Source: Dastarcus helophoroides
Lineage: Eukaryota; Arthropoda; Insecta; Coleoptera; Bothrideridae
Assembly: GCA_028583605.1 (NCBI GenBank)
Contig: CM053327.1
Span: 29,810,626-29,874,625, forward strand
DNA length: 64,000 nucleotides
Direction of reading: 5' to 3'
The notes beneath the pieces were generated by a model. It was not told where the DNA came from. It searched no databases and saw only the letters and a program-made list of their open reading frames with translations. Shown piece by piece: positions 2,100-49,171 of this stretch. The translations under genes and the position numbers were made by a program. The number at the start of each line of letters is the position of its first letter. Positions within the stretch are counted from its first letter, which is position 1.

Positions 2100-2440
2100 A
2101 GATTACTACTATGCAAGAAGAATGCAACCTAGACTACAAATTCATGCAGCCCTCCAGGCGTGTATAGTGAATCATAGGTAGCTGAACTACCAACAATTGA
2201 AACACTGCCACCTAGCGAAGCGGTTGCTCTCTAGGAGAGTTCCCAGAAGACAAGCATTCTATAATGCACAGACCAATAGGTTTGAATATTTATTAGATTC
2301 GAAGTTTGGAAACCAAATACCGGTTTCGATCTTGGTAGATCTCGTCAGCTTGGTATATCCAACTCGAATGCTAACAAATGTTCCGACATGTAAGCACTGT
2401 GAATGTTTTAGTACTTACTTGCCTCTTGGTCTGTGCATTA
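2100..2440 (-). repeat. Dispersed repeat carrying hammerhead A
   Basis: This interval shares blocks with 5040-5400, with the three tandem units at 6609-7600 and with 41578-41870. Shared words include a TATAGTGRATCATAGGTAGC-like segment and a block with AGCGAAGCGG/TTAGCAAGCGG. On the minus strand it contains a complete hammerhead ribozyme (2302-2365). No open reading frame of note is present. It could be a retrozyme-like element or a relic of a larger retroelement. Confidence 0.6.
2302..2365 (-). ncRNA. Hammerhead ribozyme A (type I)
   Basis: Read on the minus strand, CTGACGA (2348-2342) is followed by stem II GATC/GATC (2341-2338, 2331-2328) with loop TACCAA, then GAAA (2327-2324). Next come C2323, a 2-nt loop, and GTA (2320-2318), the cleavage triplet, with A2318 as the nucleotide before the cut. 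The inner part of stem I pairs ACCAAG (2354-2349) with TTTGGT (2317-2312). After a 3/1-nt internal loop, TTGGA (2362-2358) pairs with TCCAA (2310-2306). Every conserved core nucleotide of the hammerhead family is present. Cleavage activity is inferred, not shown. Confidence 0.85.
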
Positions 2441-3519: not shown

Positions 3520-3727
3520 TTGACCTTATCTGACAAGTATGCAGATTTGAAATAAGTTCAGCAACCTAAATAATAAAAATAAACTCTCTCCAAAATGCTG
3601 TTACTAGTCCTTAGGTATTTCAGCATGATTATTTGAAGCACCGTTGCACTTAAGGACCACTAAACTGATGATTTTTAACAGCTTTATCTGACATCTTTTA
3701 CATTCTAAAGATAAAAATATATATAAA
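3520..3727 (+). promoter_or_regulatory. Conserved upstream block and TATA box of peptide gene 1
   Basis: A TATA box (TATATATAAA, 3718-3727) lies 60 bp before the ATG. Upstream, 3520-3660 resembles the region upstream of the other copies: CTTATCTGACAAG, a GGTATTTCAGCATGATTATT-like word and a TGCACTTAAGGA-like word. TTATCT, the reverse complement of AGATAA, occurs at about 3528 and 3684 and fits the WGATAR consensus for GATA factors. In insects GATA factors often control gut and fat-body genes, so expression there is only a suggestion. Confidence 0.55.
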
Positions 3728-3786
3728 CCAATGGAAAAACTAAGAGTGACATAGTTCCACTAAACTACCAACATCTAGGAGCAACG

Positions 3787-4537
3787 ATGAAGGCTATCTA
3801 TTTAGCTATCGCTTTAATATCCTTATTGGTTGCTTATGCGGCATCCAACCCTGTTGGTGATGCAGGTAAGAGCCTAACATTCTTTTTCTTTAATACTTAA
3901 TTTTAGCACTCTCTTCTTAAACATTTATTTAAAATCCTTTTTTTTTGCTTACGCTAAAATTGAATAATTTTATTTTCAATATCCAGAAGAAAAACTTTCA
4001 TCATTATCACTTTTGTAATTAATGGTAATGTATAAGTAAATGAACTTATTAAAACCACTATGTTTAGTTCAGGGCTTTAGTCATTATATTCTAGAATCGT
4101 TATATTTTAGGGTCATTATAGTCTGGAGTCATTACATTCTAGCCTCATTATATTCTGGTGTTATTATATTTAAGCAGATGCTCTCTACACTGTTCTAAGT
4201 TTGAAGAGTTCATGTAAATTTTTTTTGGCCAGTCTAAATACAAAGAGTAGATGTGATTTTTTTCAAAATTTCTCCCATTCGTCTATTTTAAACAATTAAT
4301 TACATTCGTTATTACTGACATAATTTTGCTCTAACGATACTAACTTTTAGTCTTCCAATTGTATTGTACAAGTTGTCCTTGTTTCCAGATCTGGAAGAAC
4401 TGAACACTTTGGAGGCCAAAGGACTGAAAATCGAACCAACAGAGTCATGTCCTAAACCAACTTGCACTAAAAAATGCAAATCCTACAAATGCAGGTTTAA
4501 CAACATTTGCGTATACTGCTGGTGTGAAAACTGTTAA
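3787..4537 (+). CDS. Secreted 8-cysteine peptide, paralog 1
   Basis: Two exons, 3787-3865 and 4389-4537, with a GTAAG donor and a TTTCCAG acceptor. The intron is phase 1. The product has 75 residues: a signal peptide (about 1-19, MKAIYLAIALISLLVAYA), a short acidic linker with the word LEELNTLEAKGLKIEP (28-43), and a basic cysteine-rich domain (46-75). Cysteines are at 47, 52, 56, 61, 67, 70, 72 and 75, and the C-terminal residue is cysteine. The CxxxC and CxC pair with eight cysteines recalls cystine-stabilised alpha-beta peptides such as drosomycin, but the loops are unusually short and I do not recognise a named family. An AATAAA lies at 4594-4599. Function is unknown; an antimicrobial, venom-like or signalling role is possible. 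Confidence 0.88.
4081..4176 (+). repeat. 16-bp minisatellite in intron of peptide gene 1
   Basis: Six consecutive 16-bp units of the form TCATTATATTCTAGAA fill this part of the intron. The same unit recurs, with more copies and reverse-complemented, inside the intron of the palindromic partner (8438-8573). Confidence 0.8.
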
Positions 4538-5399
4538 GATCTTGTTAATACACTTTTATTCAGTATTAAATAATTCAATAATTAAACTATTTGAATAAAA
4601 ATAAGTTTAATATTTTTTAATCCTAAAAATGCACACCTCTTGAGTTGATTTCAGAACTCAAATTTGTAATTGAAACATTAAAACTACAAAATTCGAGGAA
4701 AAATTGAAAGTTAGATTTAAATTCGACTTTTCTGCCTTCTACCAAGATTTAGATTTTTCAACCAAAATTTTAAATTAAGCTTTGAAATTTCTACGAAAGT
4801 CAATTTTAATACAAAAATATAAACGGTGAGTTATTAGTAAGGTAAAACCTTGTAGTCTGTAGCTCCTACAATGTCTTCGGTAAAAATCTTGGTTACAAAT
4901 ATGCATGAGAGATTTTAAAATTATTTTTCACTATAGAACTTAAACATACACAGAATGGTGCACCAGACTTTCCTTTTATCAAAAAATTTCGTCTTAAATG
5001 TCAAAATTAAAAAAAATAATAACCAATTTCAAGTTTTAAATATGATAAATGTTCAATCTATTGCGCTGTGCATTAGAATCAAATATTCTGGGGCGTTCCC
5101 CAGAGAGCGACCACTTGCTAAGCGTTTGTGGCTCAACTGTTCGTAGTTCGGTTACCTATAAACCGCTATACACATTTAGGGGGTACCTACTGTAGCCTAA
5201 GTTGCATTCCATTTGCAACATACACATAAAACATAAAAACTAAGGCAGTTATGATGAATTTGACAGCAGAATTGATTGGTTTAAAAAGTAGGACAGTAAA
5301 GTGAAAACCGCAACATTCAATGTGACACCCTGTACGGTTATCAAAGAAATCAATTAAGAGAAACCAAAAAAAAATGAGGCATTGCAAACGATGTAATTA

Positions 5400-6608: not shown

Positions 6609-7600
6609 CCTCTGGGGAAAGCCCCAGAATACTCAATACTAATGCACAGCGCAACAGGTTGAACATTTATCAGATTCAGAGATCGAAACCGGTCTTTAGT
6701 ATGTATAAATTTCATTATTTGCAATTTAAATCTTGAAATTAGTTATTAGTTTTTTAAATTTTAACATTTAAGACGAAATTTTTTGATCAAAGGAAAGTTT
6801 GGTGCCCATTCTGGGTATGTTTAACTTCTATTCTAGATAGAATGTTGCGGTTTTCACTTTTAATGAAATCAAAAATTCTGGTATTAAGTGTCTTAGGTTT
6901 TATACTTTATGTGTATGTTGCAAGTGGATGCAAATTAGACTGCAGTATGTAGCTGTCTAAACGTCACAGGTAGCCGAACTACCAACAGTTAACCCCCAAA
7001 CGCTTAGCAAGCGGTCGCTCTCTGAGAAAAGCCCCAGAATACTTGATTCTAAAACACAGATCAATAGGTTTGAACATTTATCAGATTTAGAGATCGAAAC
7101 CGATCTTTGGTATGTATGAATTTTATTATTCGCAATTTAAATCTTGAAATTAGTTATTAGTTTTTTAAATTTTAACATTTTAGACGAAATTTTTTGATTG
7201 AAGGAAAGTTTGGTGCCCATTCTGTGTATGTTCAACTTCTATTCTAGATAAAATGTTGCGGTTTTCACTTTATTGTCCATCTTTTAATGAAATCAAAAAT
7301 TTTAGTATTAAGGGTCTTAGGTTTTATACTTTATGTGTATTTTGCAAATGGATGCAACTTAGACTACAGTATGTAGCTGTCTAAACGTGTATAGTGGATC
7401 ATAGGTAGCCTAACTATCAACAGTTAACCCCCAAACGCTTAGCAAGTGGTCGCTCTCTGGGAAAAGTTACAGAAGACTTGATTCTAATACACAGGTCAAT
7501 AGGTTTGAACATTTATCAGATTTAGAGATCGAAACCAATCTTTGGTATGTATGAATCTTATTATTTGCAATTAAAACTTGAAATTACCTTCTGCTTTTTT
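6609..7600 (+). repeat. Tandem units of about 410-435 bp
   Basis: Three direct copies begin at about 6609, 7018 and 7452, each with a CTCT(G/C)-rich AAAGCCCCAGAATAC-like start and a following GATCGAAACC word (6681, 7092, 7527). The units belong to the same family as the hammerhead A repeat and contain only the 3' half of its core: GAAAC, then a GGTC or GATC version of the cleavage triplet. The CTGANGA box is missing, so they are not complete ribozymes. The last unit runs into the right arm of the inverted duplication, and its reverse complement is present in the left arm. Confidence 0.7.
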
Positions 7601-8063: not shown

Positions 8064-8871
8064 TTAACAGTTTTCACACCAACAGTACACGCAAATGTTG
8101 TTAAATCTGCATTTATAGGATTTGCATTTTTTAGTGCAAGTTGGTTTAGGGCATGACTCTGTTGGTTCAATCTTCAGTCCTCTGGCCTCCAAAGTGTTTA
8201 GTTCTTCCAAATCTGGAAAAAAAGCGTAATTTGTACCATGCAATTGGGAGACTAAAGATTAGTATCGTTAGAGCAAAATTATTGCCAGTAGTAACCAGTA
8301 TAATTAATTGTTTAAAACAGACGAATGAGAGAAATGTTGGCAAACATTTCATCTACGCTTTGTACTTAGGCTGGTCCAATAAGAATTTGACATGGTCACT
8401 TGAAGAAACTTAGAACAGTGTAGAGAGCAACTTCTTAAATATAATAACCCTTGAATATAATGATCCTAGAATATAATGACCCTAGAATATAATAACTCTA
8501 GAATGTAATAATCCTAGAATACTGATGTATTCTGTAATAACGGATGAATGTAATGACCCTAGAATATAATAACTAAAGCACTGAACTAAATAAACACTGT
8601 GGTTTTTAATAAAGTTCATTTACTTATACATTATCATTAATTACCTAAGTGATAATAAGGAAAGTTCTTCTTCTGGATATTGAAAATAAAATTATTCAAT
8701 TTTAGCGTAAGCAAAAAAAAAGATTTTAAATAAATGTTTAAGAAGAGAGTGCTAAAATTAAGTATTAAAGAAAAAGAATGTTAGGCTCTTACCTGCATCA
8801 CCAACAGGGTTGGATGCCGCATAAGCAACCAATAAGGATATTAAAGCGATAGCGAAATAGATAGTCTTCAT
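8064..8871 (-). CDS. Secreted 8-cysteine peptide, paralog 2
   Basis: Exons 8793-8871 and 8064-8212 on the minus strand, joined across a 580-nt phase-1 intron. The donor reads G/GTAAGAG and the acceptor TTTCCAG. The 75-residue product differs from paralog 1 only at residues 3 (T for A), 6 (F for L) and 37 (R for K), and has the same eight cysteines (47, 52, 56, 61, 67, 70, 72, 75). A TTTATT at 8027-8032 is AATAAA on the coding strand. It faces paralog 1 tail to tail within the inverted duplication, so the two genes converge on the spacer. The intact frame and splice sites suggest both copies are functional. Confidence 0.88.
8438..8573 (-). repeat. 16-bp minisatellite in intron of peptide gene 2
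   Basis: About eight units of the form ATAATGACCCTAGAAT are present, some degraded. The partner intron on the left arm has six. The copy-number difference helps explain the longer intron here. Confidence 0.75.
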
Positions 8872-8930
8872 CGTTGCTTCTAGATGTTTGTAGTTTAGTG
8901 GAACTATGTCACTCTTAGTTTTTCCATTGG

Positions 8931-9140
8931 TTTATATATATTTTTATTATCTCCAGAATGTGAAAGATGTCAGATAAAGCTGTTAAAAATCATCAATTTA
9001 GTGGTTCTTAAGTGCAACGGTGCTTTAAATAATCATGCTGAAATACCTAAGGACTATTAACAGCATTTTGGAGAGAGTTTATTTTTATTATTTAGGTTGC
9101 TGAACTTATTTAAAATCTGCATATTTGTCAGATAAGGTCA
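8931..9140 (-). promoter_or_regulatory. Promoter block of peptide gene 2
   Basis: The TATA sequence TTTATATATA (8931-8940, near-palindromic) lies 60 bp upstream of the ATG. The block up to about 9140 is the palindrome partner of 3520-3727, with the same AGATAA motifs (near 8971 and 9130). Confidence 0.5.
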
Positions 9141-13494: not shown

Positions 13495-13640
13495 GTCAGC
13501 TTCCCCCTTCAAAAAAGTCACGACATGCCCCTGCTGAAAGTAAGGCCGAAAACGGACTATGGTTTTTGGTTATAAATATTTTCAGCTGTAGTATGTCCTA
13601 TTGTTTCATTACAGAATATTTAATTGACAAAAATGAATAG
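13495..13640 (+). repeat. Decayed copy of hammerhead B/C repeat
   Basis: CTGAAAG, TAAGGCC, GAAAACGGAC and TATGG at 13534-13562 line up with the core of the copies at 19.8 and 48.9 kb, and the downstream TTACAGAATATTTAATTGAC end is also shared. Stem II and the last base of the CTGANGA box are broken, so this copy should be inactive. Confidence 0.6.
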
Positions 13641-13950
13641 GTTTGGTCAATTTCCATATTTTAAGCATAGGGCCGTAGAAGAGCGTTGTGCTAGTGCGTT
13701 ATTTATTGTAAAACCATGTAGAGGTATTTCCTAGAGAAAATATTAAGATTTCACTAATATTTCGTATTTAAAAATGTTCTGTAAATGGCCTTTCATGTTT
13801 ATCAAACAAATCGTTGGTGTGCTTGTAGTAACTGAACCAAGTAAGGACCCTGATAGATTTTGTTGGAATAAACGTATTTTTATTAAACTAGTTTTATTAG
13901 TTATAAGTGAAATTATTTAATATTATACATATAAAGGTTTGTTAATATCA

Positions 13951-14674
13951 TTAGCAGTGTTCACACCAACAGTGTAAACAAATATTATTAAATTTGCATT
14001 TGTAGGATCTGCACTTTTTGATGCAAGATGGTTTTGGGCATCGCTCTGTTGGTTCAATCTTCAGTCCTCTGTTTTCCAAAGTTTCCAATTCTTCCAAATC
14101 TGTGAAAAACGATTTAATAAGCAACTTGTCACGTGTATTTCAAACAAATTATGTTACTTATTTTTGAGAATTTTCTTTTTTAATTTTTCCTAACTAGTAA
14201 CCGAAAAAATGTCATGTAAAAACTACTAAGCCAGCAGTTATCATCTAAATCTAAATTATAGGGAAATATACATTTTTTAAACAAATAAATATGGGGAAAT
14301 GGGGCATTTATTATACCATCTTTTTTTAGGTAAATTAGAAAAAGTTAATTATATAAAAAGTTCTAAAAGGTCTTAATAAAAAATCATGCTACATTTTTTG
14401 TACCTAACAGTAACAAATCAGAACAAGTTAAAAGACAATCTGTAAATTATGTCATGTAAATTCCAATAACAAAAAAGTTGAGGCAATTGAAATGTGTTTG
14501 ATGACCACACACCTATAAACAGCACCATTGGTACCAGAAAAACGCAAAAATAAAAGTTGGTCTTCAAGAAGTTTAAATAAATGCCCATGTCTTACCAGCA
14601 TCGTCAATAGGATTAGCTGCTGCATAAACAACCAATAAGGATATTAAGGCAAGGGCGACGTAAATGGTCTTCAT
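13951..14674 (-). CDS. Secreted 8-cysteine peptide, paralog 3
   Basis: Exons 14596-14674 and 13951-14099 on the minus strand, with a 496-nt phase-1 intron, GGTAAG donor and TTCACAG acceptor. The 75-residue product has a signal peptide (MKTIYVALALISLLVVYA), an acidic linker and cysteines at 47, 52, 56, 61, 67, 70, 72 and 75. It is more diverged than paralogs 1 and 2: R46, S51, I53, R57, K62, L68, H69 and H74 replace other residues, while cysteine spacing and the WCE motif near the C-terminus are kept. AATAAA on the coding strand is at 13884-13879. No lesion is seen. Confidence 0.87.
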
Positions 14675-14728
14675 TTTTGCTCGTTTCGGTAGTTTAATGA
14701 AACTATGGCATTTTAGTTTTTTCGTTCG

Positions 14729-14925
14729 TTTATATATTAGTTTAGAACAAGTAAGTTGTTAGATAAAGAAATTGAAAGCGTCATTTCAGGGATGTTTAGC
14801 TATAACATGGCGCTTCAAATCATTTGGAGTACCTACTTAAGGATAAAAACTACGAAGAGTCTCTTGGATACAGTTTATTTAAAGTTTGCAAATTTGCATA
14901 CTTATTAGATAAGGTCAAGAATTGT
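14729..14925 (-). promoter_or_regulatory. Promoter block of peptide gene 3
   Basis: TTTATATA (14729-14736) lies about 55 bp upstream of the ATG. Farther upstream are TTAGATAAAG (about 14759) and TTAGATAAGG (about 14908), plus words similar to those before genes 1, 2 and 4: GCGCTTCAAAT, TACCTACTTAAGGA and TTTGCATACTTATTAG. Confidence 0.5.
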
Positions 14926-16055: not shown

Positions 16056-17326
16056 TACGAGGGCTCCGATAAGTACTTAGCCTCACCACTGTCGCAAGAG
16101 AAATTTACTATCGTGTAGTACATTCTCGTAGACAGCTACTAATTTCAGCCGAATCGGACTCGTAGTTTTGTTTTCACCGCGTGTGGAAGCGGGCGTGCCC
16201 ACGGATTTTATAAAAATGGAAAAAGAGTAATACCGGTCGATGATTCGATTCTTGTTTTTGGAAGGGAAATCGGGTAGCGAAATCAAAGAGCGCTTGGATG
16301 CTGTATACGGTGACTCTTCTCCTTCGAGGACGACCTTCAAAAATTGGTTTAACGAGTTTCAGCGTGGTCGCACGTAGGTTTTTGATGAGCCACGTCCAGG
16401 TGCCCCGAAAACGGCTACTACGGAGGATAACGTGACAAAAACCCACGATCTCGTATTGGCAGACCGCCGATTGAAGCTACGCGAGATAGCTGAGACAGTA
16501 GGCATCTCAAAAGACCGCGTGGGTCACATCCTGCATGAAATTTTGGTCATGAGAAAGCTGTCGGCCCGATGGGTGCCGCGTTTGCTCACTCCGGACAACA
16601 AGCGCAACCGTGAGACCACTTCAGAGTAGGGTTTGACGCTGTTTAAGCCCAATTCGAAGGAGTTTCTGCGTCGTTTCGTGACCGTCTACGAAACATGGAT
16701 CAACTGGTACATGCCAGAGACCAAGAAAGAGTCGAAACAGTGGATTTCACCCGGTGAACGTGCTCCGAAGAAGGCGAAGACTGTCCTATCGGCCGGAAAG
16801 GTGATGGTCACCGTTTTCTGGGATTCACAAGGTGTGACTACCTGGAGAAGGGCAAAACGATTACAGGGCTGTACTATGCCGAATTATTGGGCTGATTCGA
16901 TGCCGAATTGCAGAAAAAACGGCCCCATTTGGCGAAGAAAAAAGTGCTCTTTCACCATGACAACGCACCGGTTCACACCTCCGCCCTCGCCTCGGCCAAA
17001 TTGGTCGAATTTGGGCTACGAACTTTTGCCCCATCCACCGTATTCTCCAGATTTGGTCCCGTGCGGCTTCTATTTATTTCCAAACTTGAAAAAGTCACTC
17101 GCCGAGCAGAAATTTGAGTCGAATGAGAAGGTCATCGCCGCCAAGGAGCGGAGGCCTACTTTGCAAACCTTGAGAAAACGTATTTTTCAGACCGGTTAAA
17201 GAAGTTGGAGCATCGCTGGGTCAGGTGTATCCAAATAAAAGGAGACTACGTTAAGAAATAAATCACCACTTTTCCAAAATTTTCTTTTTTTTTTGTAGGC
17301 TCAGTACTTATCAGACTACACTCGTA
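16056..17326 (+). mobile_element. Mariner transposon, full length but inactive
   Basis: Terminal inverted repeats begin TACGAGGG (16056) and end CACTCGTA (17326) and share GATAAGTACTTAGCC or GATAAGTACTGAGCC inside. TA dinucleotides flank both. The reading frame has the N-terminal helix-turn-helix region (16230-16440 and on, with LREIAETVGISKDRVGHIL), the catalytic stretch with VTVYETW where mariners have an aspartate, HHDNAPVHTS in another frame, and PPYSPDLVPCGFYLF where the third aspartate is glycine. At least two stops and a frameshift break it. It cannot encode an active transposase. Confidence 0.9.
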
Positions 17327-19082: not shown

Positions 19083-19674
19083 ATTTAACAGAACATTGAA
19101 CTGAAACACTGTAGCTGTGTAGCTTATTAATAAATCCAATTTCTCCAAAAGAGGTTTTTTTCTTTTACCACGTTAGCAATTACGTATTTCTCCAGCAAGA
19201 CTGGCATTGTCAAGTATCCTAATCTAATTAATAAGCAAAAGAAAGTATTGAATTGATCTACGTTGATATTTATATCGATATAGGCCGCTGTTTACTTTCT
19301 AATTTCAAATTTTTACTTTCTGTAGGTGTGAGCCCAAATTTCAAACAGGGTAGTCGAGTCTAGAAAAAAAAAATGAATTAAGGTGCATACTTCTGACAAA
19401 AAATTCGAAATTTAAAATCGAATTAATCTAAATTTCAAGAAAATACTCAAAATGTATTTTAAAAATTTTTTGAAATTTTAAACTTTAAATTCAATACCAA
19501 ATTTAACATAGAAATGTGACAAGTGAAAGCCAAAAATGTGAATTTAAAATCACAATTTTATGAAAAAATCGCGAGAATCGCAAGTAGAAATTTTAAGATG
19601 GTCAAAAAATAGAGAAGTCTTGAGATTTGCAAAAATAGGCAGAACATTAATGCTGTATGTATACGAATACATAC
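19083..19674. other. AT-rich intergenic stretch
   Basis: No gene or element boundary is recognised. Confidence 0.5.
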
Positions 19675-19885
19675 AAGTCAGTTACAAGTCACCCAATGGA
19701 GGTTAACTCTCTTGGATACTTATACGACTGACTAACGGCTTTAAGTTGAAAGTGTATACAGCCACCTTACCATACTGATGAGGCCAAGGAAGGCCGAAAC
19801 TAGTCTATGGTTGCGGTTGTACATATTTTCAATTTTAAGCACGTTTAACTGCTTAATTACAGAACATTTAATTGTTCATATGTCG
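19675..19885 (+). repeat. Dispersed repeat carrying hammerhead B
   Basis: About 210 bp match 48752-48969 closely from AAGTCAGTTACAAGTCACCC to ACAGAACATTTAATTG. A decayed relative is at 13495-13640, and a short piece (GCAGAACATTTAATT) is near 43127. The unit holds one complete hammerhead ribozyme and no open frame. Its size and composition fit a retrozyme monomer piece or the ribozyme-bearing end of a Penelope-like element. Confidence 0.75.
19757..19821 (+). ncRNA. Hammerhead ribozyme B (type I)
   Basis: CTGATGA (19775-19781), stem II GGCC/GGCC (19782-19785, 19792-19795) with loop AAGGAA, then GAAA (19796-19799). Stem III is A19799-T19804 and C19800-G19803 closed by a 2-nt loop, and the cleavage triplet is GTC (19803-19805). 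Stem I pairs ACCATA (19769-19774) with TATGGT (19806-19811). After an internal loop, TACAGCC (19757-19763) pairs with GGTTGTA (19815-19821), with one G-U pair. All conserved core positions are present and the triplet is the optimal one. Confidence 0.9.
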
Positions 19886-20250
19886 AACATTAATAACAAT
19901 GATAAAAACTAGAATTTATAATTAAACATTTTCAGAATAAATTTTTAAAGTTTTAAGTTGGTGGTTAGGAAAATATCAGCTGCTTTATTTAAAAAGACAA
20001 CGGATTAGATCAAAATGACTTGGAACCCCATTTATTTATGTATCAGAAAAAAACTCAGACGATGATAGTGTCACAACCATTAATGTATGCAAACCGTGTC
20101 AACTTTCAACTATTAATGTATGCAAACCTAGTTTTTTAACAATCCGTTGTGCTGTAAAAAGTGGATTTTTTAAAATAAACATATTTTTGCTAAAATATTT
20201 TTATTAACAAGTTAATGGGTATATAAATTCATGTTTCTTAAAAAAAAATC
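19886..20250. other. Intergenic with a small direct repeat
   Basis: The 17-bp word ATTAATGTATGCAAACC occurs twice (about 20080 and 20112). The 3' region of peptide gene 4, with AATAAA on the minus strand at 20205-20200, lies at the right end. Confidence 0.6.
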
Positions 20251-20722
20251 TTAGCAGTTTTCACACCAGCAATACACACAAATATTGTTAAAACTACATT
20301 TGTAGGATCTGCATTTTTTAGTGCATGTTGGTTTTGGGCATGATTCTGTTGGTTCGATCTTCAGTCCTCTGGTTTGAACGCTCTTCAAATCTGCGGAAAA
20401 ACAAATTTAATCAGCCTTCAATTAAACATATTTAGGTACAAATTTATAAGGAAAAACTTAACCAATAATAGCTGAAAATAAAGAAAGATAAAAATTATTT
20501 CCTATAAATGATTTATTTTGTCTTTGAGAATTATACCTAAATAATACAGATAATAGAATTTTCTGTACAAACGAAAATTTACTAGAAAAGATAGTTTTCA
20601 AACAATTTAAGATAAATGTTAGAGAAATTAAACGGTCTCGTACCTGCACCTTCGATGGGGTTGGAAGCTGCGTAAACAACTAATAAGGACATTAGGGCAA
20701 TAGCGAAGTAGATGGCCTTCAT
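20251..20722 (-). CDS. Secreted 8-cysteine peptide, paralog 4
   Basis: Exons 20644-20722 and 20251-20390 on the minus strand, with a 253-nt phase-1 intron, GGTACGAG donor and CCGCAG acceptor. The product has 72 residues: signal peptide MKAIYFAIALMSLLVVYA, a linker three residues shorter than in paralogs 1-3 (DLKSVQTRGLK), and cysteines at 44, 49, 53, 58, 64, 67, 69 and 72 with unchanged spacing. The cysteine-rich part is nearly the same as paralog 1 (R for K and S for R). No lesion is seen. Confidence 0.87.
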
Positions 20723-20780
20723 TTTTGATTGTAAGTGTTGACTGCTTAATGAAACTATGCGATTTTACCTTTTTTGTTTC

Positions 20781-21480: not shown

Positions 21481-21573
21481 GAGGTTAAGTTTGATTTGAA
21501 ATTTCTCTCGAGATTCTAGTTTTATTGCTCGACTTTTTTCCAAGTTTGGACCCTGTCAAAGAACTACTAAAAG

Positions 21574-22890
21574 TATTCTACGTTTTGCCCACCATCAGCA
21601 GCTTCTATAAACGAGTGTCCGGCCCCCCAAATCGGTTTCCCCTTATCCCCAGCCGTAGCAAATATTTTCATGGAATCATCTTTTAAAAATACTGCCTTGG
21701 AAACTGCCTAAGGTATGGCTTCGTTTTGTAAATGACACATTTATTGTATGGCCACATGGCAAGGATTCAATAAATATATTTTTGGAACACCTAAAGAGTT
21801 TACATTCTTCCCTTAGCTTCACTATGGAAATCGAAAACAACGGTTTTCTTCCTTTTCTTGACGTACTGGTCACCCGTTTACCAAATAGTCGCGTCTCCCA
21901 TTCCGTTTATCGAAAACCCCCGCATATTAATCGTTATTTGCATGCCTAGACCCATCATCACCCTTCCCAAAAAAGTTCTACTATAAATTCACAGGTTTCA
22001 CGAGCTGTAGCAATTTCACAGCCAATAAATCTTTCAGACGAATTAAACAAAATTCGTTTTAACCTCCGCAACAATGGTTACAAATCGCACGACATTGAAA
22101 CTGTCATTAAACGACATCTTCACCCTACCCCTCGTCCTTCACAAAATTCAATAATTTTTTTTAAAGCCTTTCTTCCTTATGCTCACGGAGTAACAAATCA
22201 AATCGGAGAACTATTGAGAAAACACAACATTAAACCCATATTTTCATCATCCTCAAAAATCCAACAGCTCCTTCCATCTTCCAAAGATAAAATTTCATCC
22301 TTTCGTTCTAATGGTGTGAACAGGGTTCCTTGTTCTTGCGGTTCAGTGTACAACAGAGAAACGGGGCGATCATTTAAGACGCGAATATCCGAGCACCAAA
22401 GATGTCTTAAGTCTGGTTTATTTTCGCAGTCAGCCATTGCGAAACATCAACATGAGACCGGACATAAGATTCTTTTTGATAATATTTCAATTATATCCAA
22501 TATTCCCAATTACTATAATAGGAAGATACGCGAGGCCATTGAAATCCAAAAGTTCCCCAAAAACATCAACAGAGACGACATGCTTCCTCCATCTGGAAAC
22601 CAACCATCGGAAATCTTCGGGAGTGATCGCGCAGACGAATGCTATTCAAAGTTTCCCTTTCTTTCTTTCCTCTCAAAAGAGTTTTGCCTCTGGTATGGTG
22701 GACATACTGAGTTACCGCGCTCTTCTGTCTAAACTTTCTTATCCTTTCTACCAATTTTCAATTCAGAAGAGTTTCGCCTCTGGTATGGTGGACATACCAT
22801 ATACATACCATATATTTCCTTGTATTTTCATTTATTGTTTCTTTGTTGATGAAGAAGTCCCCTAGGATGGTGGGCGAAACGTTGAACAGT
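21574..22890 (+). mobile_element. Penelope-like retroelement, 5' truncated
   Basis: The translated frame runs from 21625 to about 22620 with few breaks. Reverse transcriptase motifs are FPLSPAVANIFME (about 21628), LRFVNDTFIVWPHG (21720; aspartate of the usual VDD replaced by asparagine) and NNGFLPFLDVLV. An in-frame stop lies near 21947. The C-terminal GIY-YIG endonuclease region is seen as VPCSCGSVYNRETGRSFKTR and HQHETGHKI, with the usual YIG changed to YNR. Small direct repeats with TTTGCCTCTGGTATGGTGGACA or its variant lie at 22680-22800. A GATGGTGGGCGAAACGTTG end word is at 22867, and an inverted relative is at 21574-21594. Confidence 0.85.
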
Positions 22891-23009
22891 TTCAAATTTT
22901 TTCTCGAAATTTCGACTTCGTTTACAAATTTTGCACCTAAAATTTCAGAAACAAAGTTGAAAGTTTGAATTTGTCATCAAAAGTTTTACTTAAAAGTTGA
23001 AATTAAAAA

Positions 23010-31376: not shown

Positions 31377-33100
31377 CGACGACATTAGCAGCTTATGCAG
31401 ACCACACAGCTTTAATGGTTAACTCTCTATGTCCAGAATTGGTCATTAGACGACACAGCTTTAATGGCTAATTCTCTAAGTCCAAAATTGGTTACCAGAT
31501 GATTACAGGCAGCCACAGACGAACTTCTAGAATACTTTGGTCAATGGAGAATTCAAGTCAACGCAGACAAGACCCAAGCAGTCTTCTTCACCAAAAAAAG
31601 GCTCCAACCATTTCGTCACGTTCATGTCCATGGAAAAAACATCGATTGGAGACTTCAGGCAAAGTATCTAGATGTAATACTCGACAAAAGCCCGACATTT
31701 CAGGCTCACATCGACTATGCAGTGTCTAAGGATAGAATGCTAAAGGGAATGTTGGTAGAAATAGCAAACTGCCCATTTGGCTTAAATTGGTGTTATACAC
31801 TTCAATTATAACCCGACGACATAAGCAGCTTATGCAGGCGACACAGCTTTAATGGTTAATCCTCTAAGTCCAGGATTGGTCACCAGACGACTACAGACAG
31901 CCACAGATGAACTTCTAGAATACTTTGGTCAATGTAGAATTCAAGTCAACGCAGACAAGGCCCAAGTAGTCTTCTTCACCAGAAGAAGACTTCAACCATT
32001 TCGTCACGTTCATATCCATGGGCAAAACGTCGATTGGAGACTTCAGGCAAAGTATCTAGGTGTAATAATCGACAAAAGCCCGACATTTCAGGCTCACATC
32101 GACTGTGCAGTGTCCAAGGATATAATGCTAAAGGGACTGTTGCTGGCAATGTTGGTAGAAATAGCAGACTGCCCATTTGGCTTAAATTGGTGCTATACAC
32201 TTCAATTATAACCCGACGACATTAGCAGCTTATGCAGACGACACAGCTTTCATAGTTAATTCTCTATGTCCAGAATTGGTCACCAGACGACACAGCTTTA
32301 ATGGCTAATCCTCTAAGTCCAGGATTGGTCACCAGACGACTACAGACAGCCACAGATGAACTTCTAGAATACTTTGGTCAATGGAGAATTCAAGTCAACG
32401 CAGACAAGACCCAAGTAGTCTTCTTCACCAGAAGAAGACTCCAACCATTTCGTCACGTTCATGTCCATGGGCAAAACGTCGATTGGGGACTTCAGGCAAA
32501 GTATCTAGGTGTAATAATCGACAAAAGCCCGACATTTCAGGCTCACATCGACTGTGCAGTGTCCAAGGATAGAATGCTAAACGGAATGTAAACGGAATGT
32601 TGGTAGAAATAGCAGACTGCCCATTTGGCTTAAATTGGTGCTATACACTTCAAATATAACTCGACGATATTAGCAGCTTATGAAAACGACACAGCTTTAG
32701 TAGTTAATTCTCTATGTCCAGAATTGGTCACCAGGCGACACAGCTTTAATGGTTAATCCTCTAAGTCCAGGATTGGTCACCAGACGACTACAGACGAAGA
32801 GATGAACTTCTAGAATACTTTGGACAATTGAAGTCAACGCAGACAAGACCCAAGTAGTCTTCTTCACCAGAAGAAGACTCCGACCATTTCGTCACGTTCA
32901 TGTCCATGGGCAAAACGTCGATTGGATACTTCAGGCAAAGTATCTAGGTGTAATACTTGACAAAAGCTCGACATTTCAGGCTCACATCGATTATGCAGTG
33001 TCCAAGGGTAGATTGCTAAAGGGAATGTTGCTTGCAATGGTTGGTAGAAATAGCAAGCTGCCCATTTGGCTTAAATTGGTGCTATACACTTTAATCATAA
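31377..33100 (+). repeat. Tandem array of the reverse transcriptase active-site segment
   Basis: The word ACATTAGCAGCTTATGCAGAC or a variant marks unit starts near 31380, 31814, 32217 and 32660. Units are about 400-445 bp. Each encodes the YADD-containing segment (AAYADDTAL or a variant) and then the following part of the RT domain (QTATDELLEYFGQ, RIQVNADKTQVVFFTRRRL, AKYLGVIIDKSPTFQAHIDC). A shorter internal repeat of the DDTALMVN segment also occurs. The first unit is the most diverged. The array arose by repeated duplication within a dead retrotransposon. Confidence 0.85.
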
Positions 33101-36076: not shown

Positions 36077-36521
36077 ATGAAATTGGTTATATTTGCTGTT
36101 TTATTAGTAACTGCACTGGTTGCTTCTTCTGCTGCAAGCCCCATAGAAAGCTCCGGTAAGATTTGTATTAAACATAAACAAAATCATTACATAGTAGGAC
36201 GAATATTTAAAATATTTTTGGTTGTGTGTTGTGATTAATAATTTTTTTTCAGATTTAATAAGGTTCTAATATATCAATTTCAAATAATTATATTTCTAAT
36301 AGTTCCAGCCAGTCGTAGTTGCTCATTTATCGTGTTTTGCTTTTACTAATTATCTAATTATCTGTATTGCTTTTTCTATAGACTTGAAGGCTGATTTGGA
36401 AGCAGGACTAAAAATTGAACCATGGGAAAACTGCCCTAAACCAACATGCACGAAGAAATGCAGGTCTTATCCATGTTCTTTTGGAAATATTTGTGTCTAC
36501 TGCTGGTGTGAAAACTGTTAA
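36077..36521 (+). CDS. Secreted 8-cysteine peptide, paralog 5
   Basis: Exons 36077-36155 and 36382-36521 with a 226-nt phase-1 intron, GGTAAG donor and TCTATAG acceptor. The 72-residue product has the most diverged signal peptide (MKLVIFAVLLVTALVASSAA), an acidic linker with LKADLEAGLKIEP, and cysteines at 44, 49, 53, 58, 64, 67, 69 and 72. W41, P57 and G61 are specific to it. Splicing, length of exon 1 (79 nt) and the cysteine framework match the cluster, so it is an older member of the same family. It lies on the plus strand 15 kb from paralog 4. Confidence 0.87.
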
Positions 36522-36763
36522 TATTGATTTCATAAGCAATTAACATGTGATATAATTAACCTTTCATTATGTATGTACGTAAAATATTCATAAGGTGTTT
36601 TCGTCAGTTTTAAATATGTCAGACTTTTCTAATATTCCTTTCTCTACTCTTATCTTTTATTCTTAGGAATCCATTATTGTTATTAAATATTTTTAAATAT
36701 ATTTATTGCTAACCTTCGAAATCACTTATTGCCTATTATTGTAAATGAAAAAATAAAAAGAAA

Positions 36764-39623: not shown

Positions 39624-40769
39624 ATGAAAACTACAGGCCGTTGGTTACGAAAAATTTGTGAATCTCAAAGCAATAGCCAGGCTAACTTTATATCATGGAG
39701 TTCCGATTCTGATGAAGATAGACCAATTAAGAAAAGAAGAAATTTGGAAGAAATAGCTTATTCATTTGGTAAAACAACGTGCTGCTTAACAGAAGAAAAT
39801 GAAACGCCTATAAAATTTCAAAATAGTTTCATTTCAACAAAATTTAGCCTTGACAGGGATTTTTCTGATTTAGAAGAATCTCCCTCTCTCAATAACTCTA
39901 AATTTGAAGAGTCGTCTCCGTTGTTATCTCAAAGTTATGGTTACGAAGAGGAGTCGCCCATTATAAGCGAAAGAAACATTTTAAAAGGAATTCGCCTACG
40001 ACATAGAAGAAAATTAAGTAATGTTAGGAAAAACATCACTACAACTAGCATTTCCCCGGATTTATTCCTATCCCAAGAAACCGCTGTGGTAGATAACAAA
40101 TCGCCAAGTGGTGGTTTCAAGTGTAACATTAGTAATATATCTCCATCGAAATCAGAAGTTAGTAATAAATCTCCATCAAAATCAGAAGTTAGTAATACAT
40201 CTCCATCAAAATCAGAATTTAGTAATGTATCTCCATCAAAATCGGAAATTGCAGAAAGTTGTCACATAGAACCTTTCCCCAGTCAGGACAGTTCGTCCGT
40301 GATCATTACCACAAATACAGAAACTTCATCAAATTCAGATCCTGGATTGCTGTTGTACCATCAGCCTCCCCCTCGTCGCAAAAGATATAAAAAGGGAGGT
40401 CTTGCTTCTAAGATACAGAAAGCTCTTCATTTACAGAAAACTCGAACTGCAATATGGCAACATGAAATGTTTACAAAGAAATCTTTTAATGACAATAACT
40501 ACATCAAATTGTATGTTGAAAAGCACGTTACTCAATATAAGTGTAGTGTTGTGGAATGCGTTTGTTTAGAAGATTTATATCATAATGATAATAAATTGGA
40601 CTTTCGGGAAACTGTGATTGTAGTATTAGGTTTTAATATAGTTCCCAATATAATGTGTAAGGTTGGTTCGAATATAAAAATTTTCCCGCCGTTTTGTGAA
40701 CATGAATTTAGTTGTGATCCATCACCAATAAAATGTTTTTTTAATGTTTCTAAAATTTTAATAAACTGA
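39624..40769 (+). CDS. SPIDR-like DNA-repair scaffold protein (N-terminal region type)
   Basis: One uninterrupted 381-codon frame, clearly unlike its AT-rich surroundings. Near the N-terminus is FISWSSDSDED, and residues about 169-209 contain four 10-residue repeats of the form SNxSPSKSEx. A basic stretch (RRKRYKKGGLASKIQKALHL, about 250-270) is followed by TRTAIWQHE and, near 345, VGSNIKIFPPF. The GGLA-IW-HE and IFPP motifs in this order recall the N-terminal (DUF4502-type) part of SPIDR, a scaffold that works with RAD51 and BLM in homologous recombination. Human SPIDR is much longer, so this is either a short insect version, a truncated copy, or the first of several exons. The start is supported by the first in-frame ATG after the AT-rich leader; AATAAA occurs at 40845. 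Confidence 0.6.
   Translation: MKTTGRWLRKICESQSNSQANFISWSSDSDEDRPIKKRRNLEEIAYSFGKTTCCLTEENETPIKFQNSFISTKFSLDRDFSDLEESPSLNNSKFEESSPLLSQSYGYEEESPIISERNILKGIRLRHRRKLSNVRKNITTTSISPDLFLSQETAVVDNKSPSGGFKCNISNISPSKSEVSNKSPSKSEVSNTSPSKSEFSNVSPSKSEIAESCHIEPFPSQDSSSVIITTNTETSSNSDPGLLLYHQPPPRRKRYKKGGLASKIQKALHLQKTRTAIWQHEMFTKKSFNDNNYIKLYVEKHVTQYKCSVVECVCLEDLYHNDNKLDFRETVIVVLGFNIVPNIMCKVGSNIKIFPPFCEHEFSCDPSPIKCFFNVSKILIN
40128..40250 (+). repeat. 30-bp coding repeat, four units
   Basis: Four in-frame units with the DNA word TCTCCATCAAAATCAGAA (one with CG in place of CA) encode SPSKSE. The second to fourth units are nearly identical, which suggests recent expansion by unequal crossing-over or slippage. 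Confidence 0.85.
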
Positions 40770-43683
40770 CATCAGAAAAAAGCGAATGACTTCTATTTTA
40801 ATAACATGGAATATTTTGTCATATTGACTGTAACATAATCCCAAAATAAATTTACGATGTTTTTTAATGAAACTGCAACTTTTAAGTTAAAATTATAGTC
40901 TGCCGGAGGTTTCCTAAAATATTTATTTTTTTCGAAGTTTTGACTGAATTTTGAACACTGAATTTCACAAATAGAGTTCTATGTTCTCTTTAATTTTTGA
41001 AACAAAATCGAAAACTAGTGTCGACATTTTACGATGATTGTAAAATCCAATGAATTTCCAAATTAAACTCGTTATTGAAAAAAATTAGAAATTTTAATTT
41101 TTGGAAATTCTGAATTAAAGTCAAATTTTTAGCTTTAAAGTCAAATATTGTAGAACTTGAGAAGAGAAAGAGTAGCTTTTTAAATGTTATTGGTAACTTC
41201 AATCATTATCAACGCTGTTACAGAGGATTGGAAAGAAAAGTTCACAGGTTTTGTAATTTTTAATTGTTTAATTTCACAAATTGGTTCTTTTTATTGCATT
41301 ATTTTGATTATATAACATATAACATCAATTTTAAAGACAGTATAATTTTTAGTCAATTTCAAACTCCACTGATTGTCTTTTTTTTACTTATTTTTGTAAC
41401 GTTATATATTGCCCATTTTTAATACATTTATTTATCTTCAAACTTTTAAAGAAAGGCTTATATTATGTAGCATAACATTATTTGAATATATTTTATTTGT
41501 TTGTCTATTAATACAGGGTTTTGCCAGTTAATTGACATAGCAAGAACTGGAAAGTAAAAAAATTATGTTCAAAAATAGTTTGGGAACCAAAGACCCATTT
41601 CGATCTTATTATATCAGTTTGGCATACCCAACTCAAATGCTAACAAATATTCTGGTAAGTATGCAAAGGATAATTTAAAAAATTAATGGATTTTGTTAAA
41701 GTGATTCCAAGTGTAGCACTACCTATCAATCTGTGAAAGAAACTGTCAAATAGCTTCAACAAGCAAATAAAATACGACCCAGTTGCAATAATGCAATCCT
41801 TGAAACGTGTGTAGTGGATCATATCTTGCCAAACTATGAACAGGTGGGCTTTCATAAAGCGACCATTTCTACTAAACTTTAGTTTTTAATTTTAAAGTAA
41901 GATTAAGTAAGTCTAATTTTATTAATTATTGGTTATTTAATTCTGTAAATATTTCAATCAACTTAATCTCTGAAGTTGTAGAGCAACATAATAAAAGCCC
42001 TTTCTTTATAACAAATATTTATAGTTCTAATATTACACCGATATTGGTAGGTAATTAAAATGTTCACACAAAGAATCATCACATTAAAAATAAAATATTC
42101 CATTTATTTACAATTTTTGATTGTTCCTCTTAGAAACTAAAATGGGAAAATAATATTTCATATAAACTGATATCATCAAAGGCTCTCAATGTGACATGCC
42201 CTTAGATATTGACAAATGTCAATAAATGGTCCATAATGAAAATATTTGGACACAATTCCCCCTAATATTGTCTAAATCCGACACTGGTATCATTCAAATC
42301 ATATGCAAAAAATTGCATATAACTGATTACTTGAAAACTAAATGGAATATTTTATATTTTTTCAAACTATACTTACTTTTGGTAATAAAGGTACTTAGAT
42401 TAGAATTTTGTCAATATTGGATAAAATTCGGAATGTCAAAATATCACAAAGTTCCTTTATGGATTTTGTGCTAAATTTTAATGAAAATTTCCTTCTGGTA
42501 ACAAATGCGATATGTATATAGTAATTACGGCAGATAATAGAGAATATGTGTACAATGAAAATAATAATTCAATGAGAAAATATTTCATGCCCTTAAAACG
42601 CAAAATAACTTGTAAAACAGACAAATAACTTGTAAAACAGACAAATAAATTGTAAAATGACAATAAATCCTGTACTAATAAATTAAGATCATTTCTTCCT
42701 TCTGAGTTTTTTATATCACGGTCCCATTTTAAAAAAATACCCAGATTTTTGAAAAAAATTAAAACTTGGCAAATTTCTCACTTTTTTAATTCTTAGTTTT
42801 TATCCAACTCATTTATTCCCTAATTATTTCAATTTTTGTTTTTGTATACTGTTGCAAATAAAACTTAATTTATTTATTTGTCAGATGTTAAGGGACATCA
42901 CTTGAAGAATTGTTAAATATCACGTGGTCCTATGGTCAAAAACCAAATTTTTTTCAGAAATTTGCCATAATTGTACCTTAACAACTTAAGACATTTTTTC
43001 AAAACCGAAATAATAACAAAAAATCAAGTAAAATATAAATTGTTTAAATAATTAAAAACTATTGTCAAATTTGTGAATTAAACCAGAAGTATGATGTAAC
43101 CCTAAAGGGTTGGCACGTTCCATTGCAGAACATTTAATTAAAATTCTGAATAAAATCTTCCAAAATTCAAACTTTTTAAATATTAAATCTACTGAGAGTC
43201 AAAATTAAAAATATTTCGGTTTTCAATTATTTTTTTTTAAACAATTTATATTTTTTCACATAGACGTTAACTAATGAAATCAAGACAAAAATAATGGTGT
43301 ATAAATGTAACAACCTAGAATAATTTGGCCAGAAAACAATTTTGCATCTAGAAACTCAAAACATTCTTACTGTATAAATCAGTCTCATAATTTATGCTAA
43401 ATAATAGTTCAATACTTATTCCTATGTTTAAATGGCAACAACAATATAAGCATAGACTTCAGTGTATAAACAGCAATAACAATAGTTTTAAGCTTTAAAA
43501 TCAAAGTTATTAAATTAGGGAATACGTAAAGAATATTTCATTTTCCTAATTAGTCTACACCACAACCTCGATTTTCAATCTAGACATGGATTAATCATTC
43601 ACCAAATAATGACTTATACATTTGACTAGAAAAGTTACAAATGGCTTTCGTCATATTCACCAGAATTAGTTGTTATTTCTGTT
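40770..43683. other. Intergenic, mostly AT-rich
   Basis: Contains the decayed hammerhead A repeat (41578-41870), a 20-bp repeat ATAACTTGTAAAACAGACAA in about two and a half copies (42605-42655) and a piece of the hammerhead B/C repeat end near 43127. No gene is recognised. Confidence 0.5.
41578..41870 (-). repeat. Decayed copy of hammerhead A repeat
   Basis: On the minus strand CTGATAT (41617-41611) replaces the core box CTGANGA, then GATCGAAATGGGTC follows. Inner stem I (GCCAAA with TTTGGT) is preserved. Two core changes should inactivate it. The repeat continues with GTGTGTAGTGGATCATAT-like sequence near 41808, as in the copies at 2160 and 7390. Confidence 0.6.
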
Positions 43684-46641: not shown

Positions 46642-48751
46642 TGTATAGACTGTTTTGTATATAAATGTGAGCTAAGTTTACGTACTGTTATTTCCACTTT
46701 ACGTACTGTTATTTCCAAAGTCCATAAAAATTATCCAATTTCCTCAATTGTACCTGCAATTTGTTTACGTTGAAAAATTGTAGGTTATATTAAATGCCCA
46801 CAAGCTTACCAGTTCTATCAAATGTGTGTGCGGCACACTGAAATAATGATCAGTTGCATTTCATACCTGAGATTTGTTTTTTTTTCCTTCTACATCACAA
46901 ACGTATTAAAAGATAACGAAAGAATCTGGGTCATTACCTTTAAAAGGCCATAGAATAACACAGCAACTAAATTCCCCTCGACAGTCGCAATCACCCGTTT
47001 AGTATCCATAAGTGGTAGTAAATAGAGGGCGGATTTATATGCAACTTATATATAGGATGACCAGAAATACAGAATAAAATTCATATCTTTGAGTTAATTT
47101 TCTTTAAAACGCCGAAACATGTTAAGGTAGTACCACAAAACATATATGTGTAGTACTGCCGATACTGCTAGAGTCAAAATCATATCAAAAGTATACACTG
47201 TCTCGTTTGATTAACGTAATATTTAAACTAGGCAACGTGGCGATGGATTAAAAAACATAGAAATATTGATATCAGTGACCAATGTCACTGTCAAAATAAT
47301 TCAGTGACAATAAAGAAATATTTCATTGAAAAAGTAACAGAGTTGCATAAAAAACGTTAGAAAACGGGCTCTAGTAGGTTACCTTAACAAATTAATTAAC
47401 GGGCAGTCTGGCAAAGTGCGTAACATAACCTTAAAACCAAAGTAAACAACGATGTAGGATCACAGAATCCTTTATACAAAAACGACGTTGCCATATCTAA
47501 TAAACTACCTATAAAATACGATAAAAAATAGATTTTTTTATGTTTATTCGCTAATTACTTCTATCATACGTTCTAAAGTGGTACTTCCAAGTACCGAAAA
47601 TGTTTTATGTGTTATTTTCCATCGTTTTCTCCCTTTTTACTGAAATCTGAACAGTAGTTTTTGTAAAATATGATAAAACATCTAGTTTCCCGTAAGACTC
47701 AATGTTAAAAGTATGAAATTTAAAATATCAACAGTTTTTTTCTGGTTGTCTGTAGCTCTTCAAAAATTTAACTGGTCCATTATCCTGTTATAATCAATCA
47801 ATATGATGAATTTCATTAAATTCTGAACGGTAATTCTAAACTGACAGTACTACTTTAACTGATTTTAATTTTTTCCCATCTTTCGGTTATATAATAATTA
47901 ATTTTTTTTCAACCCCCTAACCCCCAACTACTCCTACTTTTTTTCTCTCAAATAGAAACATAAGGCATGAGGGGCTCGCCGAAAAGCTTACAAAAAACCG
48001 CATCCAGTCATCATTTTTCAAAATAAACGCGGTCATTAAATGTTTGCTGCTCATTTAATTTCAGAGCATATTTTGTAAAAAAAAAATTATACATCATAAG
48101 CATATTTTATTTTTACATATTTTGCATAGAGTCCGCTCTCTAGTTATAACCGACAACCGAGCTAACGTGAAAGCAAATTGGTAGGGAAAATTGAAAACGC
48201 AAAGGGATAAGGAATTACAGATGTGCGTTCGAAAGCAATGAAGTGTGAACCCCATTTTAGAGCTAAAAGACTCTGAAGTTTTTAATATATCAGAGGCAAA
48301 AAAAACATAGGAGGGACTCGCGTTTTTTTTAAATGCATTGCTTATTAAAAGTTGAAAACAAAAGTGTTATTACATTTTACATTTTTTTTATTAGATAAAA
48401 TAAAAATTATTTAAATATGATTCTGATATACAACATAAAAGGTATAGTTCAATTCACATAAATGTGCTTAAGAGTAGGCCTTGAAATATTAAATTAACTT
48501 TTAGTTACCAAACCGTTAGTTATCAAAGCTACTAAAAAATATCACTAAAGCTGGCTTCACGCGTAAACATTTTGATGTATTAATGTGTTGCCTATATTTC
48601 AGGGGTTGGTTGACAGAAATAATCTAATGAAATTAGATTTCAATTGCATCGTAATAAACTTGCATATATTCGTATATACAAGGCTTATTATCTCAGCAGA
48701 GAGTAATGCTTCAATTAGCATGTAGCGAAAATGTTTGCGTGATAAACAGTT
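46642..48751. other. Intergenic, nothing firm
   Basis: A direct repeat of CGTACTGTTATTTCCA lies at 46681 and 46700, just upstream of the 46641 gene on its 5' side. The rest shows mixed composition with no gene or element that I can name. Confidence 0.5.
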
Positions 48752-48969
48752 AAAAGTCAGTTACAAGTCACCCAATGGAGGTTTGCTCTCTTGGATACTT
48801 ATACCACTGACTAACGGCTTTAAATTGGAAGTGTGTACAACCACCGTACCATGCTGACGAGGCCAAGGAAGGCCGAAACCAGTCTATGGTTGCGGTTGTA
48901 CATATTTTCAATTTTAAGCACGTTTAACTGTTTAATTACAGAACATTTAATTGGTCATTTGTCAAAAGA
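48752..48969 (+). repeat. Dispersed repeat carrying hammerhead C
   Basis: Close relative of 19675-19885 over its whole length, in the same orientation relative to the ribozyme. The 29-kb separation and different flanks show that it moved as a unit. Confidence 0.75.
48834..48902 (+). ncRNA. Hammerhead ribozyme C (type I)
   Basis: CTGACGA (48854-48860), stem II GGCC/GGCC (48861-48864, 48871-48874) with loop AAGGAA, GAAA (48875-48878), stem III A-T and C-G closed by a CA loop, and cleavage triplet GTC (48882-48884). Inner stem I pairs ACCATG (48848-48853) with TATGGT (48885-48890), using one G-U. Outer stem I pairs TGTACAACC (48834-48842) with GGTTGTACA (48894-48902) perfectly. Relative to copy B, differences in the stems keep pairing (A-U for G-U, G-U for A-U), which argues for selection on the structure or recent common origin. 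Confidence 0.9.
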
Positions 48970-49171
48970 AATAATCAGATTACATGTTTTCCATATTATT
49001 TTTACTTCCATTATTGATGATTTAATAATGTTTAGCAGCAATTGACATAAAATATAAAAGAATCACTCTTAAAATAACCGATAACAAATCGAAATATTTA
49101 ATGATATTGTAGGAGACAGCAGATACCGAGAATACGTTATGTGAAGTGAATGAGTAGAGTTAAGAGTAGTG

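Follow-up and report, generated by a model that had tools for sequence, protein, structure and literature searches.

A beetle retrozyme whose hammerhead ribozyme has a palindromic stem III, and insertions that suggest copying of circular RNA by Penelope-like machinery

Hammerhead ribozymes in the window

The window analysed here, a 64,000-nucleotide stretch of the Dastarcus helophoroides genome (C3:29810626-29874625), contains hammerhead sites with cores at 19775 (+), 48854 (+) and 2348 (-), two of which are copies of one repeat, so that only two of the three are independent. The repeat derives from a 467-bp unit, on which E467 denotes the most frequent right end, GGTCATTTGTC; by this numbering the ribozyme core begins at E358 and the predicted cut falls after E388. 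Its copies in the window, with their parts, are:

19672-19884 (+): copy B, unit E255-E467, truncated, right end at the E467 start site
19757-19821 (+): type I hammerhead of copy B, core 19775-19805, predicted cut between 19805 and 19806
19734-19845 (+): predicted extension of stem I into a long imperfect hairpin that carries the ribozyme at its tip
19799-19804 (+): stem III ACUAGU, a 6-nt palindrome able to pair two ribozymes
19652-19674 (-): probable opposed left-arm remnant of copy B (inverted hairpin, unit E~161-183), a 19-base match that is weak alone (E = 0.049)
19642-19651: left target-site duplication of copy B, GAACATTAAT, seen by eye and then checked, missed by the automatic search
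19885-19894: right target-site duplication of copy B, GAACATTAAT, seen by eye and then checked
48625-48966 (+): copy A, same element, unit about E128-E467, truncated
48836-48900 (+): hammerhead of copy A (core 48854-48884), whose stem III, ACCAGU, is no longer a palindrome
48615-48624: left target-site duplication of copy A, AGAAATAATC
48967-48976: right target-site duplication of copy A, AGAAATAATC
13538-13626 (+): third copy of the element, decayed to 73-77% identity, with a broken ribozyme

Copies A and B have 216 bp in common, at 92.6% identity. In the left remnant of copy B the hairpin stem appears, by eye, to have changed so as to match on both sides.

The first-pass annotation had described the copy B hammerhead as complete, with the conserved positions in order, and every core element could indeed be located at 19775-19805, as CTGATGA, GGCC-AAGGAA-GGCC, GAAA, C-TA-G, T and C. 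The stem I architecture it had proposed, an inner helix of 6 bp, an internal loop and an outer helix of 7 bp, was obtained here as the same helices. Copy B thus shows the CUGANGA, GAAA and UH core, the three stems and the open stem I by which type I hammerheads are recognised. A strict descriptor (stem I of at least 6 bp, stem II of at least 4, stem III of at least 2) finds 3 sites in the window against 131 in 21,019 simulated windows of its composition (0.006 per window), and a looser one 3 sites against 0.061 per window (37 matches in 605 simulated windows).

The Rfam search that had been proposed as a check gave no hammerhead match at the gathering score in the window, an outcome that would, by the annotation's own terms, refute it. 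The best match of copy B, to RF02275, scores 27.2 bits against a gathering score of 52, with an E-value of 1.7e-4 for the 801 bp searched and 0.014 for the whole window. This gathering score is a detection threshold rather than a defining trait of type I hammerheads, and we attribute the low score to poor sensitivity for a stem III of 2 bp closed by a 2-nt loop. The sub-threshold score is in our view outweighed, because many genomic copies keep the core and because a second hammerhead family, with unrelated flanks, lies in the same window. Judged by its sequence, the ribozyme is real. The second family comprises:

2302-2370 (-): second-family hammerhead, flanks unrelated to the first family, core begins at 2348, palindromic stem III ACCGGU, predicted cut after GTA
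41576-41639 (-): decayed copy of the second family

A covariance model built from the three window sites matches the decayed copy at 41576-41639 with E = 7.6e-5. The intact second-family site is enclosed by a 29-nt inverted repeat (arms 2252-2280 and 2422-2450, 90% identity), which may represent an opposed arm like those of the first family, and the adjoining region 2112-2299 recurs at 7343-7522, 6964-7087 and 5217-5039.

A relic of another kind lies close to copy B:

21551-22892 (+): Penelope-like relic with an ORF piece at 21950-22732, a neighbour of copy B and separate from it

A second copy of the relic's 3' end, inverted, stands on its left. The ORF piece gave no Pfam family above cut-off and matches P0004 (55%); a GIY-YIG domain was found in the related P0005. 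At 22838-22892 the relic retains, in GGGCGAAACGTT, part of a minimal hammerhead whose stem III is ACGU and whose core starts with TTGATGA instead of CTGATGA. We considered copy B as a part of this relic, which lies 2 kb downstream of copy B, and rejected the idea, as copy B has its own target duplication and a probable gene (by eye) on the opposite strand lies between the two.

The remainder of the window holds an ORF (39624-40769) whose full length aligns to a protein of Zophobas morio at 33% identity, as fits an insect host and probably a beetle, a mariner-type transposase piece (16633-17199, +; Pfam PF01359) and about 2.8 tandem copies of a 449-bp repeat (31835-33091). Long hairpins at 832-970 and 53252-53388 have similar arms and match microRNA models below gathering on both strands; they are probably palindromic repeats. 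A cluster of repeated pieces at 20170-20760 (-) has similar pieces at 4416-4609, 8064-8185, 13856-14075 and 36404-36525, and others at 3612-3872, 8786-8977 and 14590-14742; by eye, the pieces of this cluster resemble genes of small secreted peptides rich in cysteine, with a signal-like start and a last exon rich in Cys.

The 467-bp unit and the anatomy of its insertions

The placing of the ribozyme in a dispersed repeat holds across the 539-Mb genome (538.9 Mb in 50 contigs searched). A 201-bp query gave 1914 first-look candidates, the best 40 of which were scored and, the window's own copy aside, match at 93-97%; a second query with the full unit gave 1922, again with the best 40 scored. Comparison of 39 other loci with the two window copies shows that all are pieces or permutations of the 467-bp unit, many of them shorter than one unit, and the full-unit query revealed units repeated in exact tandem period, in several cases as a pair of opposed arrays at one locus. 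The element is non-coding, a 467-nt unit being too short for a reverse transcriptase with a GIY-YIG endonuclease, and the predicted folding energy of the unit RNA is far below that of shuffled sequences (z about -11; two sequences, 60 shuffles each). A longer version of the element was sought and rejected: five 10-kb loci share the unit and otherwise only a few matches of 58-223 bp at 78-81%. Exact DNA patterns found no match in viral and prokaryote collections. With short units that each bear one hammerhead and are repeated as dimers to multimers, and with retrotransposition that leaves target duplications, the element is by its architecture a retrozyme.

Insertion anatomy was examined at 74 high-scoring insertions, made up of 41 from the first query, 20 multi-unit insertions chosen where several full-unit matches lay together, and 13 more, these being the 30 loci excised in the full-unit search minus 17 already covered; the loci are the best-scoring matches (40 of 1914, 40 of 1922) and not a random draw. 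Target duplications of at least 10 bp, 10-15 bp in length, flank 35/74 insertions. By set, they flank 15/41 (14 by script plus copy B by eye), 15/20 and 5/13, the null draws covering the 41-locus script set only, where one draw reached 10. The 28 listed duplications, of 10-15 bp, are 75% A+T. Outer ends lie mainly at E467 or at E~197-211: among the right ends of 61 loci, 43 are at E467, 14 at E~197-211 and 4 elsewhere, two of these in minus-orientation loci. Comparison of the E200 and E467 start sites with each other gave weak matches only. In one copy (L031), unit E162-E185 forms a 10-bp hairpin with a TTCG loop, directly before the E200 start site.

Arms exceed 1.02 units in 39/96 cases, the longest running to 4.45 units, and 36 insertions consist of two opposed arms. 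Outer ends could be classified in 31 of these (the other 5 were unclassifiable), and in all 31 one arm starts near E200 and the other near E467, where random pairing of arm starts would give about 16/31 mixed (exact P = 4.6e-9). The inner junctions of opposed arms overlap by 1-7 bases in 16/30. The predicted ribozyme cut, E388/389, was not seen as an outer end among the examined genomic copies, and inner ends show no clear excess near it (E380, 381, 383 and 391 among 60, in a sample that was picked through the ribozyme region).

The rule of one start per arm (31/31) suggests a single RNA with two enzymes bound to it, one extending each strand of a staggered cut. Self-priming on an antisense template has been favoured for Penelope elements (PMC3846280). 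For the present element we rejected snap-back self-priming as the origin of opposed arms, since we would expect it to give both arms an identical end, whereas the ends differ in 31/31.

Template sequence and folding of the ribozyme

Nine diagnostic sites separate subfamilies of the element and were compared in the 20 multi-unit insertions; bases inserted relative to the reference were ignored here, as in the divergence and core counts. Within insertions the sites are fixed in 145/148 insertion-by-site cases and segregate in 3, all at site 228, with one misaligned unit piece of L084 dropped from this count; when units are shuffled among insertions the segregating cases average 80.6, with a minimum of 55 (2000 shuffles). 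Left and right arms agree at 92/94 sites, compared with 61% for arms of different insertions, and in the 4.45 + 2.95 units of L083 one compared site differs. Divergence, in which the L084 piece is included, rises from 0.71% among units of one arm to 1.12% for opposed arms and 1.93% for different insertions. Units of some older insertions are as diverged as those of different insertions (L093 arms 4.4-6.0% against 3.5%, L091 arms 2.2-2.9% against 2.3%); we read the divergence in L091, L093 and L099 as later mutation, and for these three the raw percentages do not separate the hypotheses. Arms of more than one unit with identical units require either a circle or a homogeneous linear multimer as template.

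The stem III sequence ACUAGU is found in 45/46 parsable ribozymes of the first sample, the exception being copy A of the window, and in 61/61 ribozymes of the multi-unit insertions; the ribozyme core is intact in 43/49 of the former sample and 60/61 of the latter. By pairwise divergence, core positions are not lower than the rest (2.05% vs 1.54%), and site 362, the free N7 position, is among the variable sites.

The first-pass annotation had pointed out that, in elements known to have a very short stem III, dimers are often the active form, and the folding models agree in part with such a reading. In single ribozymes from the three window sites C3, U4 and G5 are predicted to pair with the stem III strand with a probability of about 0.9-0.99, and activity of a single ribozyme alone, with the core paired in all three, is unsupported by folding. 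ACUAGU is palindromic, and for two molecules of copy B the best predicted fold is a double hammerhead with an intermolecular stem III. The folding energies leave out tertiary contacts, and on this basis the open-core fold of the two-molecule dimer lies 1.8 kcal/mol above the best for the second family and 7.4 for copy A, while with two 216-nt repeats in tandem the gap is 3.8 kcal/mol for copy B and 8.6 for copy A. As the open-core folds of tandem dimers lie above the best, folding alone does not prove a switch. In the reading proposed here, the palindromic stem III would let the ribozyme act in multimers but keep it silent once in a circle.

Assembly of a model, and its alternatives

What the genome itself shows is the unit and its tandem period, target duplications around insertions, ends fixed at two places, arms that oppose each other and a single template sequence in each insertion. 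Our preferred reading, to which we give a probability of roughly 0.7, is that copy B is a truncated copy of a 467-nt non-coding retrozyme of the animal type whose circular RNA is copied by Penelope-like machinery; the cleavage, the ligation, the circle and the enzyme are what we infer from that record. Transcription would run through tandem copies, and neighbouring hammerheads would pair via ACUAGU, fold as a double hammerhead and cut the multimer into 467-nt monomers. A host RNA ligase would circularise these, and in the circle a lone hammerhead would take up the off-fold and leave the circle stable. A Penelope-like reverse transcriptase/endonuclease would then make a staggered cut (mostly 12-14 bp) in AT-rich DNA, and both 3' ends would copy the same circle, one from unit position ~200 and the other from ~467, each arm running round it, sometimes for several turns, before the arms join head to head. 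The stronger statement, that the insertions record rolling-circle reverse transcription of single ribozyme-made circles, with a start site for each strand and a palindrome switch, we regard as evenly balanced between true and false. The tandem-dimer folds weigh against parts of this model, as does a result for the Penelope-like element of PMC11167929, whose start sites did not differ between the top and the bottom strand.

The strongest alternative, which we nevertheless judge unlikely, is that the template is a linear multimeric RNA transcribed from a young homogeneous array and that the ribozyme has no role in transposition. Arrays of near-identical units do exist (L083-L085), so that their transcripts would be homogeneous too, and copying from them would leave much the same genomic pattern. 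Moreover, in the part of PMC11167929 consulted, ribozyme mutants inserted unchanged in vitro, uncut RNA was the dominant substrate and no reads fell at the ribozyme cut site. However, working ribozymes would be expected to reduce such a multimer to single units, whereas the longest arms measure 4.45 units and 60/61 ribozymes are intact, which makes the circle the simpler template. Diverged arrays also exist (L091, L093), yet variants segregate within insertions in only 3/148 cases. These points lead us to favour circular RNA.

As for the enzyme, the insertion mode is Penelope-like by its anatomy, with opposed arms and an extension on one of them in 31/31 classifiable insertions, and the enzyme itself would presumably be of that type. 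According to the consulted text of PMC11167929, a Penelope-like protein cuts and extends both strands, starting at two internal RNA sites, and PMC3846280, likewise seen in part, describes Penelope-like elements as having short target duplications and inverted terminal repeats, one of which may bear a tail. In the present genome, 131 Penelope-like protein matches were scored of 4145 candidates; a stop interrupts most of these matches, one that is free of stops lies in a 900-aa open frame, and seven minus-then-plus pairs of neighbours are spaced within 4 kb. Comparison of the unit with one 1.1-kb 3' end of a Penelope-like partner found no shared sequence.

Mobilisation by a LINE-type or other target-primed enzyme is less probable than the linear template and we doubt it. 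LINEs also give target duplications and truncated copies, both of which fit, as does the lack of sequence shared with the one Penelope-like 3' end that was read. Against this, no long poly(A) tail was found at the inspected ends of the first-sample and multi-unit insertions, the Penelope-like matches of this genome themselves form minus-then-plus pairs, and fixed internal starts, extension of one arm and opposed arms are features reported, in the papers as far as consulted, for Penelope-like elements.

That the ribozyme is the dead passenger of a satellite amplified as DNA, by unequal crossing-over or rolling-circle DNA, is very improbable: tandem arrays of exact period exist, but those inspected are short and dispersed, often with target duplications, mainly two fixed ends and opposed arms, while the core is intact in 43/49 and 60/61 and also present in a second family with unrelated flanks. 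A chance motif, for which the lack of an Rfam match at the gathering threshold might speak, was rejected in view of the strict and looser descriptor counts against simulated windows (3 sites where the strict one expects 0.006) and of copies across the genome that keep the core.

Relation to known retrozymes and meaning for their mobility

The papers compared here were consulted in part, and the likenesses and differences refer to that text. The nearest relatives in architecture are the metazoan non-LTR retrozymes (Cervera and de la Pena 2020, PMC7229834; PMC7761336), which likewise have short units of low GC with a type I hammerhead, occur as tandem copies without LTRs, make highly self-paired RNA and coexist with Penelope-like elements; a circle converted to multimers by reverse transcription has already been proposed for them, and a weak helix III active in dimers only is known. 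Their units are ~170-400 nt whereas the present one is 467, many insertions here are truncated or opposed-armed, and efficient monomers are described in most invertebrates, in contrast to this insect with its short palindromic stem III. To these features our data add a pair of start sites, of which each arm uses a different one, and a single template sequence for each insertion. Penelope-like elements (Poseidon of Anolis, PMC11167929; Penelope of Adineta vaga, PMC3846280) resemble our element in tandem or partial-tandem copies, opposed terminal repeats, one-sided extension, short target duplications, an internal start of reverse transcription and a type I hammerhead, but the present element encodes no protein and its extension is ~200 nt against their 30-40.

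The hammerheads of newt and axolotl satellites (PMC7229834, PMC6155905) also have a palindromic stem III and two ribozymes that must pair, although they lie in tandem repeats of 330-350 bp in amphibian hosts; the axolotl type, as presented in the text of PMC7229834 seen, is the closest precedent for the switch. pDo500 of Dolichopoda cave crickets (PMC2837043) is an insect repeat of about 500 bp with a hammerhead and proposed single and double forms, but it is satellite DNA and its double form keeps stem III intramolecular, whereas here stem III is the shared part. The W-elements of Schistosoma mansoni are satellite-like, some with type I hammerheads and one with a suggested target duplication; circular RNA, start sites and opposed arms are unmentioned in the consulted text (PMC8490949). 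Among the titles and abstract openings searched, with subscription journals thinly covered, we found no account of the insertion pattern described here.

For retrozymes, PMC7229834 has already proposed that circles serve as templates and has named Penelope-like elements as strong candidates to supply the enzyme. The insertions of D. helophoroides provide a genomic record that tests both proposals, with one template sequence, several turns and two start sites, one per arm. The palindromic switch suggests an answer to the question, raised in the same text, of what blocks the ribozyme in the circle. If true, the single-circle reading with its palindrome switch would explain how animal retrozymes move and why their circles stay uncut.
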